Shown in pieces: positions 1,273-56,647 of a DNA stretch of 64,000 nt (positions within the stretch are counted from its first letter, which is position 1; every line of letters starts with the position of its first letter). The translations under genes and the position numbers were made by a program. Origin of the DNA: Rhodobacteraceae bacterium Alg238-R152 (GTDB taxonomy: Bacteria > Pseudomonadota > Alphaproteobacteria > Rhodobacterales > Rhodobacteraceae); contig UNRJ01000006.1 in assembly GCA_900537125.1 (NCBI GenBank), positions 1-64,000 of the forward strand, read 5' to 3'. The notes beneath the pieces are model-generated. The model had not been told where the DNA came from and searched no databases. It saw nothing but the letters and a program-made list of their open reading frames with translations.

Positions 1273-1315
1273 ACGTCGGTAATACGGCAGTATCGCAGCT
1301 GTATCCCAACGGTGC
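1273..1315 (+). repeat. 43-bp element with 11-bp period, copy 1
   Basis: ACGT is followed by three 11-mers, CGGTAATACGG (1277), CAGTATCGCAG (1288) and CTGTATCCCAA (1299), then CGGTGC. The same architecture recurs at 7979 (plus) and 54215 (minus). It lies about 130 bp upstream of the GNAT gene. The 11-bp spacing of GGTAT-like cores fits a tandem operator read on one face of the helix. The binding protein is unknown. Confidence 0.6.
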
Positions 1316-1981: not shown

Positions 1982-4900
1982 TCAGGCGTCTTCTTTGGTG
2001 TCATTGCTCTGTTTGGGCGCGCCCACGTAGCCCGACACCGCTTGCAGGATGCGGAAAGCTGTTGAGGCGTCGTTTTCGACCACGGCCATGAACTCACTTT
2101 CGCCCAAACGCAGCATCTCCAGGTCGGTCTTGGCATACATGTCGAGCGCCCGCTTCTCTTTGCGCAGCAACGCCAGTTCGCCAACCAAAGTCCCTGCCCC
2201 AGCTTCGGCCACCACATGGGATTCTCCATCCGGGGTGCTGTAGCCCAACCCCGCTTCCCCCTCGAGGATCAGATATGCGCCATCAGACGGATCATCCCCC
2301 ATATGGAAGACATACTCCCCGGCGGGCGCACTGTGCCACTGTGCCCCAAAAGCCAGCAGACGCATTTGCCGACGGGACAGCCCGGCAAACATATCCGCAG
2401 AGGTCAAGGCGCGCATTTTGCGGCGCAAGTCGGCACTGGCCGCATTATCGGTGTCATCCACCGCAGCCACACCGCTGTCTTTCAGGCGACCATGTTCCAG
2501 CTCCAACACAAGATCAAAGCTGTCCGCATCCTCAAATTCCTCTTCGAGATAGAGGAAAGTGGTGTTGGGCAGCAACTCGCGCAGGTTGGCGATGGTATGT
2601 GCTGCCTGACCTTCGTCATGATTTGCCAAGCATCGGTTGAGGATCATCACATCCGGTTTTTTGATTGCTGCGCGACTGATGGCGAGGGGTTCAGAGAACG
2701 CGGCCGGAAGACCCGCTCCGCCAATGCCCGTCGGCACAGCAAACAACAGCTCGGCCACCTCTTGTTTCATGCCGGCCTCAGCCAAAGTTTGCGCAACAAT
2801 ATCGCGAATTTGCTCTGCACGAGGACCAGCAGAGGCGGCCAACTTGCCAAAGATCGCGTTTTCCAAAACCGTGAGGCCGGGGGCGTAGCGGTCTTCGCGC
2901 AGCGGCGCAAAGTACACCGCTGTCCATTCCGACAGCTTTTGCGCCTCAACGTGGCGCAATTCCAGAATAGTTTGTTTGAGGTCTTCGCCAAAACCCGCGC
3001 CAATGCGTTCTGCGGACACCAGCAGCGGCAGCGAAATCATTTGCTCCAGCTCTTCCTGGGTCATATTGGCCAGCCGGACGTCGCGGCTTTTGGCAAAAAG
3101 TTCCACGTTGCGGGTGAAGTCGTCCGGATCAAAGCCAAGCTGTTGGAATAGCGGGTGGTCGGTGCCATCCACGCCAAAGGTCTGGTTCAGCATCTCCACA
3201 ACTTCGCGGCTCATACGCAGGATGCTCTCTTCGATGCCAAGCTCTTGCAGCAGTTTCAGGAATTCGCTGATACGTTGCTCTCGACCGTCGGTGATGACCT
3301 GACGCGGGGTAGCAAAGAACAGGTTGGCGGCCACCGGCAGCGCCGGGTTGTATTGCTCCCGATCAAAGCGGAAGTAAGATTTGGTCAGGCCCGCCTTATC
3401 CAACGCCTCACGAATTTGCGGCCGCAGATCCACAAGGGTTTGCGCCAGTTCGGCGTGGTCACTTTCGACAAATGGCTGATCAAGCCCCTTGCGGAACAGC
3501 GCGTTGCCCGCACCGGTGGCATCCATCACGGCAACCCACCATGCGTGCACATCATCTTCGTTGGCCAAATCCCCCAGCGTCGGGTTCACCCAGTCGGAAT
3601 AGAGCCGATCGAGACTGTTGCCTGTGCGCTTGGACTCATAGGCCCGTTTTTTCTCTTCTGCCTCGCCCATTGGATCCGGGCGGTCTGTGATTGGTCTCTG
3701 CTTCAACGGCATCAGCACGTTGTCGCCAAAAGTGCCTTCAAACACATAGGGCGACGGATCAGCGTAGCCAATGCGAGTGGCAATCACCCGCTGGTGCAGA
3801 TCATTGAGTTTCACCCCGCCAATTTCCAACGCGCCACTCAGCGGTGTGATTTCTCGGGTGAACAGTTCAGCCACCGCGCGGCGTTCTTCGGCGTCTTGTG
3901 AGCGGATGCCGATCACCGCACCTTGGCGCACAGTGGTAGAGATGTTTTCCAGTACGCTGTCCCCATCATGGTCGCGCACATAGACGTCTTTGAGAACAAT
4001 ATCGCCGGTCAGACGTGGGATGTCCTCGGGCTCGTTTTCAATCAGCTCTTCATCCACCATGCCCGACGGACCAAAGCGGTCGCCAATCAAATGCCAGCGC
4101 AGGGACAAGTCCGCCACACGGTTGTAATAGTTCAAAAGCTCTTTCCACGGAGAGGAGAGATCTTTGTAGGCGGCAAGCGCCGCAACCAGCGCGCCAAGCG
4201 TCACCTGGCCACGGATCACCAGAAGGCCGCCAACGAGATAAAAGAAGAAAGGTGTCAGTTGCGTGATGAAGTTGTTGAGGAACTTCATGAAAAACTTCTT
4301 CTTGTAGATCGACAAGCGGATCAGGAAGAGCGTTCCCAGACGTCTGGTGACCTGCGACAGGCGATAGCGCCAGCCGCCGTTGCCACGCAGCTCTGGCGTG
4401 CCGGTGGCGGTTTCGCCAATCTCTGCTGCGAGGTGGCGAACCTGTACAATGCGGTCTTTGTTCAACAGGTTGATCTGCCGCTGCAACTTGGGAATGATCC
4501 AGGCTTGCAAGGGGATCAGCGCGATGGCCGCAAGACCAAACCAGACGTTTTGCAGAAACAAAAAGGCCAGAATGGTCAACATCTGTCCGGCCTGCATCAC
4601 CGGCAGGCTGATCGCATCGCCCATCATGCCCCCCAGCGGCTCGGCTTCCGCTGTCACCATACTGACCATCTCGCCTTGTGAGGTGCGGCGCAGATACGGC
4701 TGAGGGAATCGAGTGATGCGCGAAATCAGAGTGAAGCGATAGCGGCGCAACATGCGCTCAGACAGCACACCTTTCATTGTGTTGATGCGCATTTTCATCA
4801 GCCCGTGCACCAGCACCGCCAGCAAAAACAGGAAGCTGAGCATGATCAGGTAGTTTTCCTGCGTCATCTCCCAATTGTACACGTCAATATAAGAGGTATC

Positions 4901-5095
4901 TGCATCAATCGCGTCGTTGATGATACGTTTGGGCAGCTCCAACGTCAGGAACTGCAGCGGGAAAAGGCACACCGTGAGCGCCAAAAGGGCCATCTGGTCA
5001 CGTTTCGAATACTTCCAGATGAAGGCAAATAATGAGCGTTCTATACCGTCTACTCCCGGTTTGCAGCACGGGCTTCGCGCCGTCCCATTTGGCAA
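1982..5095 (-). CDS. ABC-exporter-like membrane protein with degenerate ATPase and C-terminal cyclic-nucleotide-binding domain
   Basis: About 1037 residues. An exporter-type transmembrane domain occupies roughly residues 20-330 (helices around LALTVCLFPLQFLTLELPKR, NYLIMLSFLFLLAVLVHGLM, QMLTILAFLFLQNVWFGLAA). A nucleotide-binding-like domain follows, but the Walker A lysine motif is absent: GAVIGIRSQDAEERRA stands where GxxGxGKST should be. The LSGGQ signature is replaced by AAFSEPLAISRAA and Walker B ends in VMILNRC without Asp-Glu. About 300 extra residues separate the two halves of this domain. A CNMP-binding fold is at the C-terminus (MFAGLSRRQ to RLGESEFMAVVEN, including GTLVGELALL). The start is uncertain: an upstream stop forces TTG at 5095 or an ATG at residue 35-36. 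A regulatory or scaffold role is more likely than active transport. Confidence 0.85.
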   Translation of the reverse strand: MPNGTARSPCCKPGVDGIERSLFAFIWKYSKRDQMALLALTVCLFPLQFLTLELPKRIINDAIDADTSYIDVYNWEMTQENYLIMLSFLFLLAVLVHGLMKMRINTMKGVLSERMLRRYRFTLISRITRFPQPYLRRTSQGEMVSMVTAEAEPLGGMMGDAISLPVMQAGQMLTILAFLFLQNVWFGLAAIALIPLQAWIIPKLQRQINLLNKDRIVQVRHLAAEIGETATGTPELRGNGGWRYRLSQVTRRLGTLFLIRLSIYKKKFFMKFLNNFITQLTPFFFYLVGGLLVIRGQVTLGALVAALAAYKDLSSPWKELLNYYNRVADLSLRWHLIGDRFGPSGMVDEELIENEPEDIPRLTGDIVLKDVYVRDHDGDSVLENISTTVRQGAVIGIRSQDAEERRAVAELFTREITPLSGALEIGGVKLNDLHQRVIATRIGYADPSPYVFEGTFGDNVLMPLKQRPITDRPDPMGEAEEKKRAYESKRTGNSLDRLYSDWVNPTLGDLANEDDVHAWWVAVMDATGAGNALFRKGLDQPFVESDHAELAQTLVDLRPQIREALDKAGLTKSYFRFDREQYNPALPVAANLFFATPRQVITDGREQRISEFLKLLQELGIEESILRMSREVVEMLNQTFGVDGTDHPLFQQLGFDPDDFTRNVELFAKSRDVRLANMTQEELEQMISLPLLVSAERIGAGFGEDLKQTILELRHVEAQKLSEWTAVYFAPLREDRYAPGLTVLENAIFGKLAASAGPRAEQIRDIVAQTLAEAGMKQEVAELLFAVPTGIGGAGLPAAFSEPLAISRAAIKKPDVMILNRCLANHDEGQAAHTIANLRELLPNTTFLYLEEEFEDADSFDLVLELEHGRLKDSGVAAVDDTDNAASADLRRKMRALTSADMFAGLSRRQMRLLAFGAQWHSAPAGEYVFHMGDDPSDGAYLILEGEAGLGYSTPDGESHVVAEAGAGTLVGELALLRKEKRALDMYAKTDLEMLRLGESEFMAVVENDASTAFRILQAVSGYVGAPKQSNDTKEDA

Positions 5096-7861: not shown

Positions 7862-7978
7862 CGGCGTCCTTCCAGTCGTCAAAGTCTTTATGCAATCACC
7901 CACCAAAAAAGTGGCAAGTGTGTTGAGTTTAGAAGGCAATTCGGAAAGTTTCCAGACGGAACTTTGGGCGCATTTTGC

Positions 7979-8021
7979 ACGTCGGTATTGCATCGGTATC
8001 GCGTCTGTATCGCGGAGGTGC
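7979..8021 (+). repeat. 43-bp element with 11-bp period, copy 2
   Basis: ACGT, then CGGTATTGCAT (7983), CGGTATCGCGT (7994) and CTGTATCGCGG (8005), then AGGTGC. This is the most regular of the three copies. It lies between the rhodanese gene and the ACP operon, upstream of the latter but in the opposite orientation. By eye it matches copy 3 at about 35 of 43 positions and copy 1 at about 32. Confidence 0.65.
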
Positions 8022-8043
8022 AAAAATTGACATGCACGTCAGG

Positions 8044-8436
8044 CTACATGCCGGGATCAACCGGCTCAATCACCGTGCCACCGCCCTCTACCCAGTCTTT
8101 GAAGCCACCCAGATTATGGACCTCGGCGTAGCCCATGTCCTTGAGCAGCTTGCCCGCCAGCGCGGCGCGGCCACCAGAGGCGCAGTGCAGGATCACCGGC
8201 CGGTCAAATTGCAGCTCCGGGTCATGGAACGGCGTGGCGGGATCGGCGCGGAACTCCAACATGCCGCGTGGAATGTGGTGACTGCCTTCCGCGCGGCCAT
8301 TGGCGGCGAGCTCCGGCGCGTCACGCACATCCAGCAGCAGCGCACCGGCGGCGACTTTGGCCTGCGCCTCAGGGATGGTGATTTTGGGAACAACGGCATG
8401 CGCGGCTTGCACAAGATCAGCGGCGGTGGTTGGCAT
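8044..8436 (-). CDS. Rhodanese-like domain protein
   Basis: 130 residues starting MPTTAADLVQ, with Shine-Dalgarno GAGGAG 8 bases upstream. A single rhodanese domain: the entry motif LLLDVRDAPELAANGRAEGSHHIP and the active-site loop HCASGGRAALAGKLL with the catalytic Cys, followed by the exit motif GYAEVHNLGGFKDWVEGG. It would move sulfane sulfur or act as a persulfide carrier, probably in the cytoplasm since no signal peptide is visible. It begins about 80 bp downstream of the terminator of the structured-RNA region. Confidence 0.9.
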   Translation of the reverse strand: MPTTAADLVQAAHAVVPKITIPEAQAKVAAGALLLDVRDAPELAANGRAEGSHHIPRGMLEFRADPATPFHDPELQFDRPVILHCASGGRAALAGKLLKDMGYAEVHNLGGFKDWVEGGGTVIEPVDPGM

Positions 8437-8514
8437 CGGGAGACTCCTCTGGTGTGTGTGCCAAAGGGTAAGCATGGGGCGGGCGCCTGTTAAGAGGGCA
8501 TCGCAAAGCTATGA

Positions 8515-54214: not shown

Positions 54215-54257
54215 GCACCACCGCAAAACAGTCGTGATACCGACATAATACCGACGT
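54215..54257 (-). repeat. 43-bp element with 11-bp period, copy 3
   Basis: Read on the minus strand: ACGT, CGGTATTATGT (54253-54243), CGGTATCACGA (54242-54232), CTGTTTTGCGG (54231-54221), then TGGTGC. Same length and phase as the copies at 1273 and 7979. It lies just beyond the parC terminator and upstream of the small gene at 53694-53993. Confidence 0.65.
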
Positions 54258-54269
54258 GGGTTTTGACAC

Positions 54270-54294
54270 AAAAACGGGGGCGCAACGGCCCCCG
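54270..54294 (-). terminator. Terminator after parC
   Basis: On the minus strand CGGGGGC and GCCCCCG form a stem around a short loop, followed by GTTTTTGTG. It lies 5 bases after the parC stop codon. Confidence 0.75.
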
Positions 54295-54298
54295 AAAT

Positions 54299-56647
54299 TT
54301 ATGTGTCGAACTTGTAATCTTTGGGGAACCCGTAGGGGGCTTTCTTGCCGACCCCGGCCCGTTTTCCAAGCCAATCAGACAGGTCCGGCTCATGCCGCGT
54401 TTTACCGCTGCCGCCCATGGACCAAGTCAGACCATTTTTCCACTCAAACGTGGTTATGTCTGACAATCCGCCGTCTAGCTCCAGCGTACCCTGACGCCCA
54501 CGTGCCATGTTATACTTCTGAATTCGCACACCTTTTCCGCGCCCAAGCTCCGGCATTTCATCAATAGGGAACACCAGGAAACGTCCGTTTTTGGACACCA
54601 CCGCCACGTGATCGCCCGCCACTGGATGACAGATCATCGCGCGGTTATCGTCTTTGACGTTCAACACCTGTTTGCCGGTCCGGGTTTGCGCAATCACGTC
54701 TTTCTCAGGCACCACAAAACCATCGCCTGCGCTACTGGCAACCAGCAGTTTACGATCGGGCTTGTGGACGAAAATATCAACGATTTCAATGTCATTTGGC
54801 AGATCAACAATCAAGCGCACAGGTTCCCCCATGCCACGTCCGCCCGGCAAGTTTGCCGCGCTCAACGTGTAGAAGCGACCATTAGAACCAAACATCAAAA
54901 GCCGGTCCGTGGTCTCCGCATGGAAGATAAAACGCGGCCCATCACCGTCTTTGAACTTCAACTCACGTTTCAGATCAATGTGGCCAGACATTGCCCGGAT
55001 CCACCCCATTTCAGAGCAGACAATGGTGATCGGTTCCCGATCAATCATCGCCTCAATGGGCACCTCTTCAACCTCAGCCGCCTCAGAGAACACCGTGCGC
55101 CGCGCGCCACCTTCATAGTCTTTTCCGAAGGTTTTCTTAGCCTCTTTCAGCTGCTCGGAAATGCGCTGCCATTGCAGATCATCACTTCCCAAAAGCGCAA
55201 CGATTCCAGCGCGTTCCTCCAGAAGCGCATCGCGTTCACGAACCAACTCCAACTCTTCCAAACGCCGCAAACTGCGCAGGCGCATGTTGAGAATGGCTTC
55301 GGCCTGCACCTCGGTGAGCTGCGTCTCGCCGGAGCCGGGTAGCGGCGATTTGTAGTCCTTCTCATCCTGCGCACGTGGATGATCCAGATCCCAGTTTTCC
55401 GCCATCAGCGCTTGTTTGGGCGCGTCATCGTAGCGGATGATATCAATCACACGATCCAGATTGAGGAAGGCAATGATGAAGCCTTCCAACACTTCCAACC
55501 GGTGATCGATTTTCTCCATCCGGTGTGTGGACCGCCGGATCAATACCTCACGCCGGAAATCCAAGAACGCCCGAAGAACTTCCTTCATAGAGCAGACTTT
55601 TGGCGTCACCCCATCAATCAGAACGTTCATATTGAGCGAGAACCGAATCTCCAAATCACTGCTGCGATACAGCATGTTCATCAGCACATCCGGCTCAACG
55701 TTCTTGCTTTTGGGCTCCAAGATCACGCGAATGTCATCTGCCGATTCATCGCGCACGTCAGCAAGAATTGGAACCTTCTTGGTCTGGATTACCTCCGCCA
55801 ACTTTTCAATCAGTTTAGATTTCTGAACCTGATACGGAATTTCGGTGACCACAATCTGCCACTGTCCACGCCCTAGGTCTTCTTTCTCCCACTTACAGCG
55901 CAAGCGGAAAGACCCACGGCCCGTGCGATAAGATTGCGCGATGCTTTCCGGCGGCTCAACAATTACGCCCCCGGTTGGGAAGTCCGGTCCCGGCACGTAG
56001 TTAAGCAACGTGTCTTCGCGCACATCCGGCGTTTTGATCATATGCAAACAGGCGTCGCACAGCTCACTGATATTGTGCGGTGGAATATTGGTCGCCATAC
56101 CCACAGCAATGCCGCTCGACCCGTTTGCCAAAAGGTTTGGGAATGTTGCGGGCAGCACCACAGGTTCACGTAGGGTTCCGTCGTAATTCTCTCTGAAATC
56201 AACGGCATCCTCGTTGAGACCTTCCAAAAGGGCCTCAGCCACGGAGGTCATCCGCGCTTCTGTATATCGGCTCGCAGCCGGGTTATCCCCGTCAATATTG
56301 CCAAAGTTACCTTGACCATCAACCAGCGGATAGCGGACGTTAAAGTCCTGCGCCAAACGCGCCATTGCGTCGTAAATTGCCGCATCGCCATGAGGGTGAT
56401 AGTTGCCCATCACGTCGCCGGAAATCTTCGCCGACTTCCGGAAGCCCCCGCTGGCGGAAAGTTTCAATTCGCGCATGGCGTAGAGGATGCGGCGGTGGAC
56501 TGGTTTCAGCCCGTCCCGCGCATCAGGCAAAGCACGGTGCATAATAGTGCTAAGCGCATAGGTCAGATAGCGGTCGCCAATGGCGCGCCGCAGCGGCTCG
56601 GTCACAGTCTGTGCTGGAAGGTCGTCGTCTTCGATCAAGTCAGTCAT
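54299..56647 (-). CDS. parC: DNA topoisomerase IV subunit A
   Basis: 782 residues. Catalytic Tyr128 in [10 protein letters not shown], the conserved start [35 protein letters not shown] (residues 19-53) and a C-terminal beta-pinwheel ([21 protein letters not shown]) shorter than that of GyrA. With ParE it decatenates daughter chromosomes. The quinolone-target loop reads [10 protein letters not shown], so the positions equal to E. coli Ser80 and Glu84 are Ala89 and Asp93. Confidence 0.96.

Follow-up and report, generated by a model that had tools for sequence, protein, structure and literature searches.

Oriented, evenly spaced arrays of 11-bp repeats in Shimia and some other Rhodobacteraceae: candidate docking sites for a chromosome-organising protein

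The first 64,000 nucleotides of contig UNRJ01000006.1 from Rhodobacteraceae bacterium Alg238-R152 (here, the window) contain a 43-bp sequence in three copies, and the question raised by this locus is whether these copies are operators of a few local genes or members of a larger family with a different role. The three copies that had been described in an initial annotation are present at the positions and on the strands reported there, and each is 43 bp long and gap-free. They and the genes next to them are:

1273-1315, + strand: array copy 1, with units at 1275-1285, 1286-1296 and 1297-1307 and a degenerate unit at 1308-1315
7979-8021, + strand: array copy 2, with units at 7981-7991, 7992-8002 and 8003-8013 and a degenerate unit at 8014-8021
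54215-54257, - strand: array copy 3, with units at 54245-54255, 54234-54244 and 54223-54233 and a degenerate unit at 54215-54222
1-601, - strand: 5' part of the 16S rRNA gene, with copy 1 on its upstream side; the copies at loci L013 and L011 are likewise placed
8044-8475, - strand: rhodanese-domain gene; copy 2 follows its 3' end
54299-56647, - strand: parC (topoisomerase IV subunit A); copy 3 follows its 3' end

Pairwise identity is 32/43 for copies 1 and 2, 35/43 for copies 2 and 3, and 30/43 for copies 1 and 3, close to the values estimated by eye. When each copy was held out in turn, it ranked third window-wide under a profile of the other two, with scores of 34.0, 45.2 and 40.8, and the next-best scores in the window under these two-copy profiles were 15.6-16.2. 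Under a profile of all three, the copies score 57-61 and the maximum over 100 simulated windows was 16.6. We conclude that the copies in the window are not due to chance. The proposed period of 11 bp, i.e. one helical turn, was confirmed, with units starting at core offsets 2, 13 and 24, and a degenerate one at 35. By contrast, the GGTGC sequence previously described as a separate end is the degenerate fourth unit of a four-unit array, because other species keep this unit as CGTCGGTGC or CGTCGGTAT. All three copies lie between genes, as had been noted; copy 1 is 130 bp before the GNAT gene and ~670 bp upstream of the 16S rRNA gene, while copies 2 and 3 are found just after stop codons, i.e. 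22 bp past that of the rhodanese gene and 41 bp past that of parC, respectively. Elsewhere in the window, a 1037-aa open frame (1982-5095, - strand) with an ABC-transporter membrane domain and a cyclic-nucleotide-binding domain adjoins the ACP, beta-ketoacyl synthase and MaoC genes.

The initial annotation had proposed a scan of this genome and its relatives. With a sequence-only model of the three copies, the window's genome (G000, 4.27 Mb; other G numbers denote relatives, and L numbers array loci) gave 84 matches, 82 of which have E<=0.003, and many further copies were found in relatives. In the genome profile search, copies 2 and 3 have E values of 9.4e-12 and 2.3e-11, respectively. None of the 84 copies is inside a gene predicted by a simple codon-based gene caller. 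After realignment, the consensus of the 84 copies is ACGTCGGTATTRCGTCKGTATCRCGACTGTTTTGCGGAGGTGC followed by an A/T tract, and the shared core consists of four 11-bp direct repeats of CGTCGGTATYR. The copies in the window are the edge of something larger.

Among named genomes, exact matches to the pattern were detected at at least 109 loci, all in Shimia or unclassified Rhodobacteraceae. In a scan of 60 genomes, 21 of the 24 other Shimia species had 40-85 matches each (counts near 84 are lower bounds), and outside the genus one of 35 genomes had a single match. The remaining three Shimia species, G005, G009 and G012, had one weak match each and still only 1-2 matches at E<=10; thus, the arrays are dispensable in Shimia. 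In a ParC tree, the root of which is uncertain, G005 and G012 group together as sisters within array-bearing species, and this position points to a loss of the arrays in these two species. The three nearly array-free species retain parC and the rhodanese gene and offer a natural comparison in the search for the binding protein. In a survey of the family in which 17 candidates were scored per genome, so that copy numbers are lower bounds, 20 of 295 genomes matched; two of these are Shimia, leaving 18/293 outside the genus, and seven genomes of other genera had 16-17 matches among the best 17 candidates scored. In a survey of the class with 13 candidates scored per genome, three of 385 genomes matched, all in Rhodobacteraceae. 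The letters of single units vary by species and genus, and mostly four CGTCGGTATYR units at 11 bp persist. By eye, many copies in G316, which belongs to another genus (L362-L391), have a common longer right arm of approximately GACCCGAACGGTGGGTT...GTTAA...GGATTTCGA, while in some this arm is different, which would be consistent with several subtypes. In a search of the open-licence literature on intergenic or strand-biased repeats in Shimia, Rhodobacteraceae and Roseobacter, including the letters CGTCGGTATC, none of the papers listed describes the element. In total, the arrays are a real and unusual element family.

The arrays keep both their place and their sequence. Nine other Shimia assemblies yielded 110 copies, 102 of which are at the same place and in the same orientation as a copy in G000 and none of which is inverted; by assembly, this ranges from 17/17 (N1E20) down to 1/4 (CNT1-13L.2). 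Among the top-scoring copies, 21/30 in G017 and 19/30 in G023 (one by a weak 74-bit match) are at the same place; a further two and three, respectively, received an inverted score, in every case from a weak match (65-134 bits). In G316, 5/30 were scored as being at the same place, three of them clearly, and one as inverted. Conservation of place thus decreases with the distance between species. We then compared sequences in 101 orthologous pairs chosen by the exact pattern on the relative's side only (48 distinct G000 loci are found among all those matched). Of the 34 specified core positions, three of which are two-letter positions, 3.6% deviate from the pattern in G000, while the six free core positions differ at 36%, the flanks at 22% and 28%, and the best aligned stretch at 14%. 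Intact cores were found in 31 pairs, compared with 0.006 expected at the rate of the right flank. These comparisons indicate that the core is under purifying selection.

The parC and rhodanese loci were chosen by protein and not by array. At the parC locus, 39-41/43 positions of the core are kept compared with 46-52/60 in the 3' flank, the terminator side being similarly conserved (35-43/43), and copy 3 is found at the same place and in the same orientation in six relatives. At the rhodanese locus, 35-38/43 core positions are kept compared with 38-43/60 in the flank, and copy 2 is found at the same place in G007, G010, G016 and G021. In G018, the rhodanese copy has lost exactly one 11-bp unit with the rest remaining in phase (core, 27/43; flank, 34/60). 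In more distant species, the two gaps hold other array variants, inverted arrays or none.

Relative to genes, the arrays tend to follow stop codons. For the 80 copies in G000 for which both neighbours are known, 35 gaps are convergent, 18 are ++, 21 are -- and six are divergent, compared with 48/305 convergent and 83/305 divergent among background gaps of >=60 bp (array sites included); thus, convergent gaps are favoured and divergent gaps avoided (Fisher p 4e-7 and 9e-5, respectively). Divergent sites are similarly rare in G316 (1/29), G023 (2/27) and G017 (1/29), after 1, 3 and 1 copies, respectively, that were called inside genes had been set aside. In G000, stop codons are closer to the arrays (median, 43 bp) than starts are (median, 105 bp). 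Because both orientations relative to the neighbouring genes occur (18 ++ and 21 --), the arrays are expected to act on DNA and not on RNA; an RNA element was rejected on the basis of these orientations and because no Rfam family matches the array. In 150 of the 161 neighbouring proteins, which were scanned for domains, we detected 229 Pfam families, the commonest of which, the ABC transporter, occurs in nine. Judged by the 25 commonest of these families, the genes neighbouring the arrays gave no candidate for a binding protein, and among 10 of the 12 neighbours of the six divergent-gap copies that were scanned none was convincing. One copy (L033, at ~425.7 kb of contig C4 of G000) adjoins a gene for a BrnA-type antitoxin.

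Along the chromosome, the arrays are spaced more evenly than expected. In G000, the mean interval is 47.8 kb with a coefficient of variation (CV) of 0.67 (73 intervals; the single copy on contig C12 gives none), compared with a CV of 0.92 expected from uniform simulation (p 0.0014). The CV is 0.65 in G017 (p 0.0002 against uniform simulation), 0.58 at 35.9 kb on contig C18 of G023, and 0.67 at 45.9 kb in G316, with none of 5000 uniform simulations being as even in the latter two. Across genomes, the average interval is 36-50 kb.

Moreover, the arrays are oriented. The local GC skew read in the direction of the array is positive for 74/84 copies in G000; it is positive on both sides of the array in 65/80 and on neither side in 2/80, and it is still positive in 18/21 cases where both neighbouring genes run opposite to the array. 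Four copies linked to rrn operons all go against this rule, and the 16S rRNA gene adjoins three of the four. The copies at L009 and L011, which are at other contig ends of G000, hold the same 43 bp as copy 1 of the window, so that three rrn-linked copies are identical, as if copied with the operon. Without the rrn-linked copies, 74/80 (92.5%) are on the G-rich strand, while composition alone predicts 61.3 (p 4e-5). Polarity as a pure effect of composition, which predicts ~77% of copies on the leading strand compared with the 92.5% observed, was rejected; by the same token, only part of the strand bias needs a function. Agreement with the skew drops to 64/84 when it is pooled with loci within 90 kb. 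In other genomes, local skew was positive for 27/30 sampled copies in G017, 27/30 in G023 and 28/30 in G316 (82/90 altogether), and for 17/20 copies from four further genera. In G017, in which dnaA is at 71 kb of contig C1, array orientation largely tracks the skew of sampled 20-kb stretches, both where this skew flips near 1.0 Mb of contig C2 and across local inversions. Around this flip (0.8-1.2 Mb), there are eight copies, i.e. 20 per Mb, which equals the overall density; on this one contig, the arrays thus showed no enrichment towards the probable terminus. Judged from GC skew, the G-rich strand is probably the leading strand.

Finally, the core is embedded in phased A/T arms. In a profile of 79 copies, A/T peaks are present at -5, -15, -26, -38 and -49 from the core on the left, and at ~+47 and +67 from the core start on the right, with a peak at +58/59 in G017 and G316. 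TTAA words cluster at ~-27 and -16 on the left, and the phase has p values of 2e-12 (left) and 6e-6 (right). Both arms have a best period of 10.25-11.25 bp in each of four genomes (G000, G017, G023 and G316; p<=0.01 against shifted copies). They mirror each other about core position 20.5-21 with r values of 0.76 in G000, 0.83 in G017 and 0.54 in G316, and with an r of 0.25 at 19.5 in G023; because mirror centres recur every 5.5 bp whenever both arms have the same period, the match to the midpoint of the core is worth only ~1 in 5. Core and phased arms make up a site of ~130 bp. In the window, arms were placed as follows, the phasing being that of the family profile and not of the single copies:

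7929-7978, + strand: left arm of copy 2
8022-8070, + strand: right arm of copy 2, reaching into the rhodanese gene at 8044
54258-54307, - strand: left arm of copy 3, overlapping the end of parC at 54299

Because of this combination of placement, even spacing, strand bias, conservation and phased arms, we favour an oriented docking site used chromosome-wide over a gene operator. We consider it likely, with a probability of roughly one half, that the arrays are one-way docking arrays for a predicted dedicated, sequence-specific protein that would organise or segregate the chromosome. With the repeats spaced by one helical turn, approximately four protein units would be aligned along the same side of the helix, and their binding would draw the A/T-phased arms into a ~130-bp bend or wrap. 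Given the asymmetry of the array and its preference for the G-rich strand, the complex would also have a direction and point from the origin to the terminus, as do FtsK-orienting sites (PMC7901474). The predicted protein could steer a translocase, load or stop a loop-forming complex, or anchor the chromosome.

The main rival is DNA gyrase because the arms have the shape of the gyrase motif of E. coli. The arrays would then be strong gyrase sites, with the 43-bp core at the DNA gate and the arms wrapping the two GyrA C-terminal domains, so that positive supercoils would be removed at regular intervals downstream of genes; we regard this reading as unlikely. The E. coli motif has a central 36 bp and two 47-bp flanks with a GC periodicity of 10.75 bp and is symmetric about the cut (PMC6379681); it is degenerate, its recognition being considered indirect, and gyrase cuts are concentrated downstream of strongly transcribed units, an enrichment that is stated not to be encoded in the sequence. 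Core and arms of the array match this motif in size and period, the arms being periodic in four genomes and mirrored about the core midpoint in three, and the copies follow gene ends. The E. coli motif, the strong gyrase site of Mu and BIME-2 share with the arrays a length of ~130 bp and a centre with two A/T-phased arms of ~10.75 bp. However, the array core is kept base by base (positions of up to 2 bits, with the 3.6% departure given above), while the gyrase motif is degenerate and has no base-specific core of direct repeats; the enrichment of cuts downstream of genes is not in the sequence; the mirror match to the core midpoint is worth only ~1 in 5, as described; and the strand bias is left unexplained. 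Moreover, gyrase is general in bacteria, yet the arrays are found in 20/295 genomes of the family.

It is improbable that the copies derive from a miniature mobile element, either domesticated or a relic, for which insertion between genes and onto one replication strand would account for both the places and the bias. The dispersal of the copies, their patchy distribution over genera and the long right arms common to copies in G316 would fit such an origin, and a strand bias is expected of elements that use the lagging-strand template (PMC6006769). The copies have no terminal inverted repeats, in agreement with the initial annotation (flank complementarity of 4.38, compared with 4.39 for re-paired flanks), and six copies formed no hairpin beyond that of shuffles (z -1.05 to 0.45), which argues against a mobile element; on the same two results, a hairpin, inverted-repeat or single-strand element was rejected. 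Phage and plasmid records gave no match to one 44-nt core at E 0.01, which fits a role on the chromosome. One exact hit was obtained in a viral collection (L432); its contig shares 81% identity over 3.2 kb with part of contig C1 of G017 and, because of this identity, is probably host DNA. Also against a mobile element are the same places in close relatives, the strong selection on the core and the even spacing.

The two other alternatives fare worse. A function as Chi-like sites, or as other sites for replication or repair that are read in single-stranded form at a fork or break, would agree with the strand bias along replication, but is very improbable: the helical phasing of the arms indicates double-stranded, bent DNA, and Chi-like sites are octamers and far more numerous than the ~80 copies of 43 bp. 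Still less credible is the proposal of the initial annotation that a PhoB/OmpR-type response regulator uses the copies as tandem operators for the GNAT gene, the ACP-KAS operon and a small gene; although 11-bp direct repeats on one helix face in intergenic DNA suit it, the copies avoid divergent promoters (6/80 compared with 83/305), favour convergent gaps and follow stop codons, the 150 scanned neighbours share no evident function, and the operators of one regulator are not expected evenly every 48 kb or along a replication strand, features that have no place in that model.

As docking arrays for a dedicated protein, the arrays can be compared with several known systems. The E. coli KOPS, GGGNAGGG, is split only 61 to 29 between strands in the same stretches of DNA. 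KOPS are among the octamers termed AIMS (PMC5993296); like AIMS and KOPS, the arrays are distributed chromosome-wide, biased to the leading strand (74/80 in G000; 82/90 in G017, G023 and G316) and pointing from the origin to the terminus, as judged for the arrays from GC skew, but they have a 43-bp core of 11-bp units instead of an octamer. The parC centromere of plasmid R1, to which ParR binds, consists of 11-bp direct repeats, and in this class of centromere the DNA wraps round the bound protein (PMC9426499). The arrays share with it the rows of ~11-bp direct repeats; however, R1 parC is carried on a plasmid and usually precedes parM, while the arrays are ~80 dispersed copies. REP and BIME sequences are multi-copy and intergenic as the arrays are, but REPs are palindromic and often clustered (PMC6006769), while the arrays are non-palindromic, single, evenly spaced and place-keeping. 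Sites such as parS and matS are, as proposed for the arrays, dispersed on the chromosome for a dedicated protein. Of these, parS sits round the origin and matS in the terminus, whereas the arrays are spread genome-wide.

To our knowledge, bacterial chromosome sites for dedicated organising proteins are few and mostly confined to the origin or the terminus. We tentatively suggest that some Rhodobacteraceae may possess an undescribed system of chromosome organisation, in which ~80 one-way docking arrays, placed at near-regular average intervals of 36-50 kb and read by a dedicated protein, would mark direction and distance along each replichore in the manner of oriented loop anchors. The natural presence and absence of the arrays within Shimia, with many copies in 21 of 24 species and almost none in three, makes such a system directly testable. 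If it exists, a conserved, directional and even array that extends over the whole chromosome would offer a new approach to the question of how DNA is measured and ordered in bacteria.
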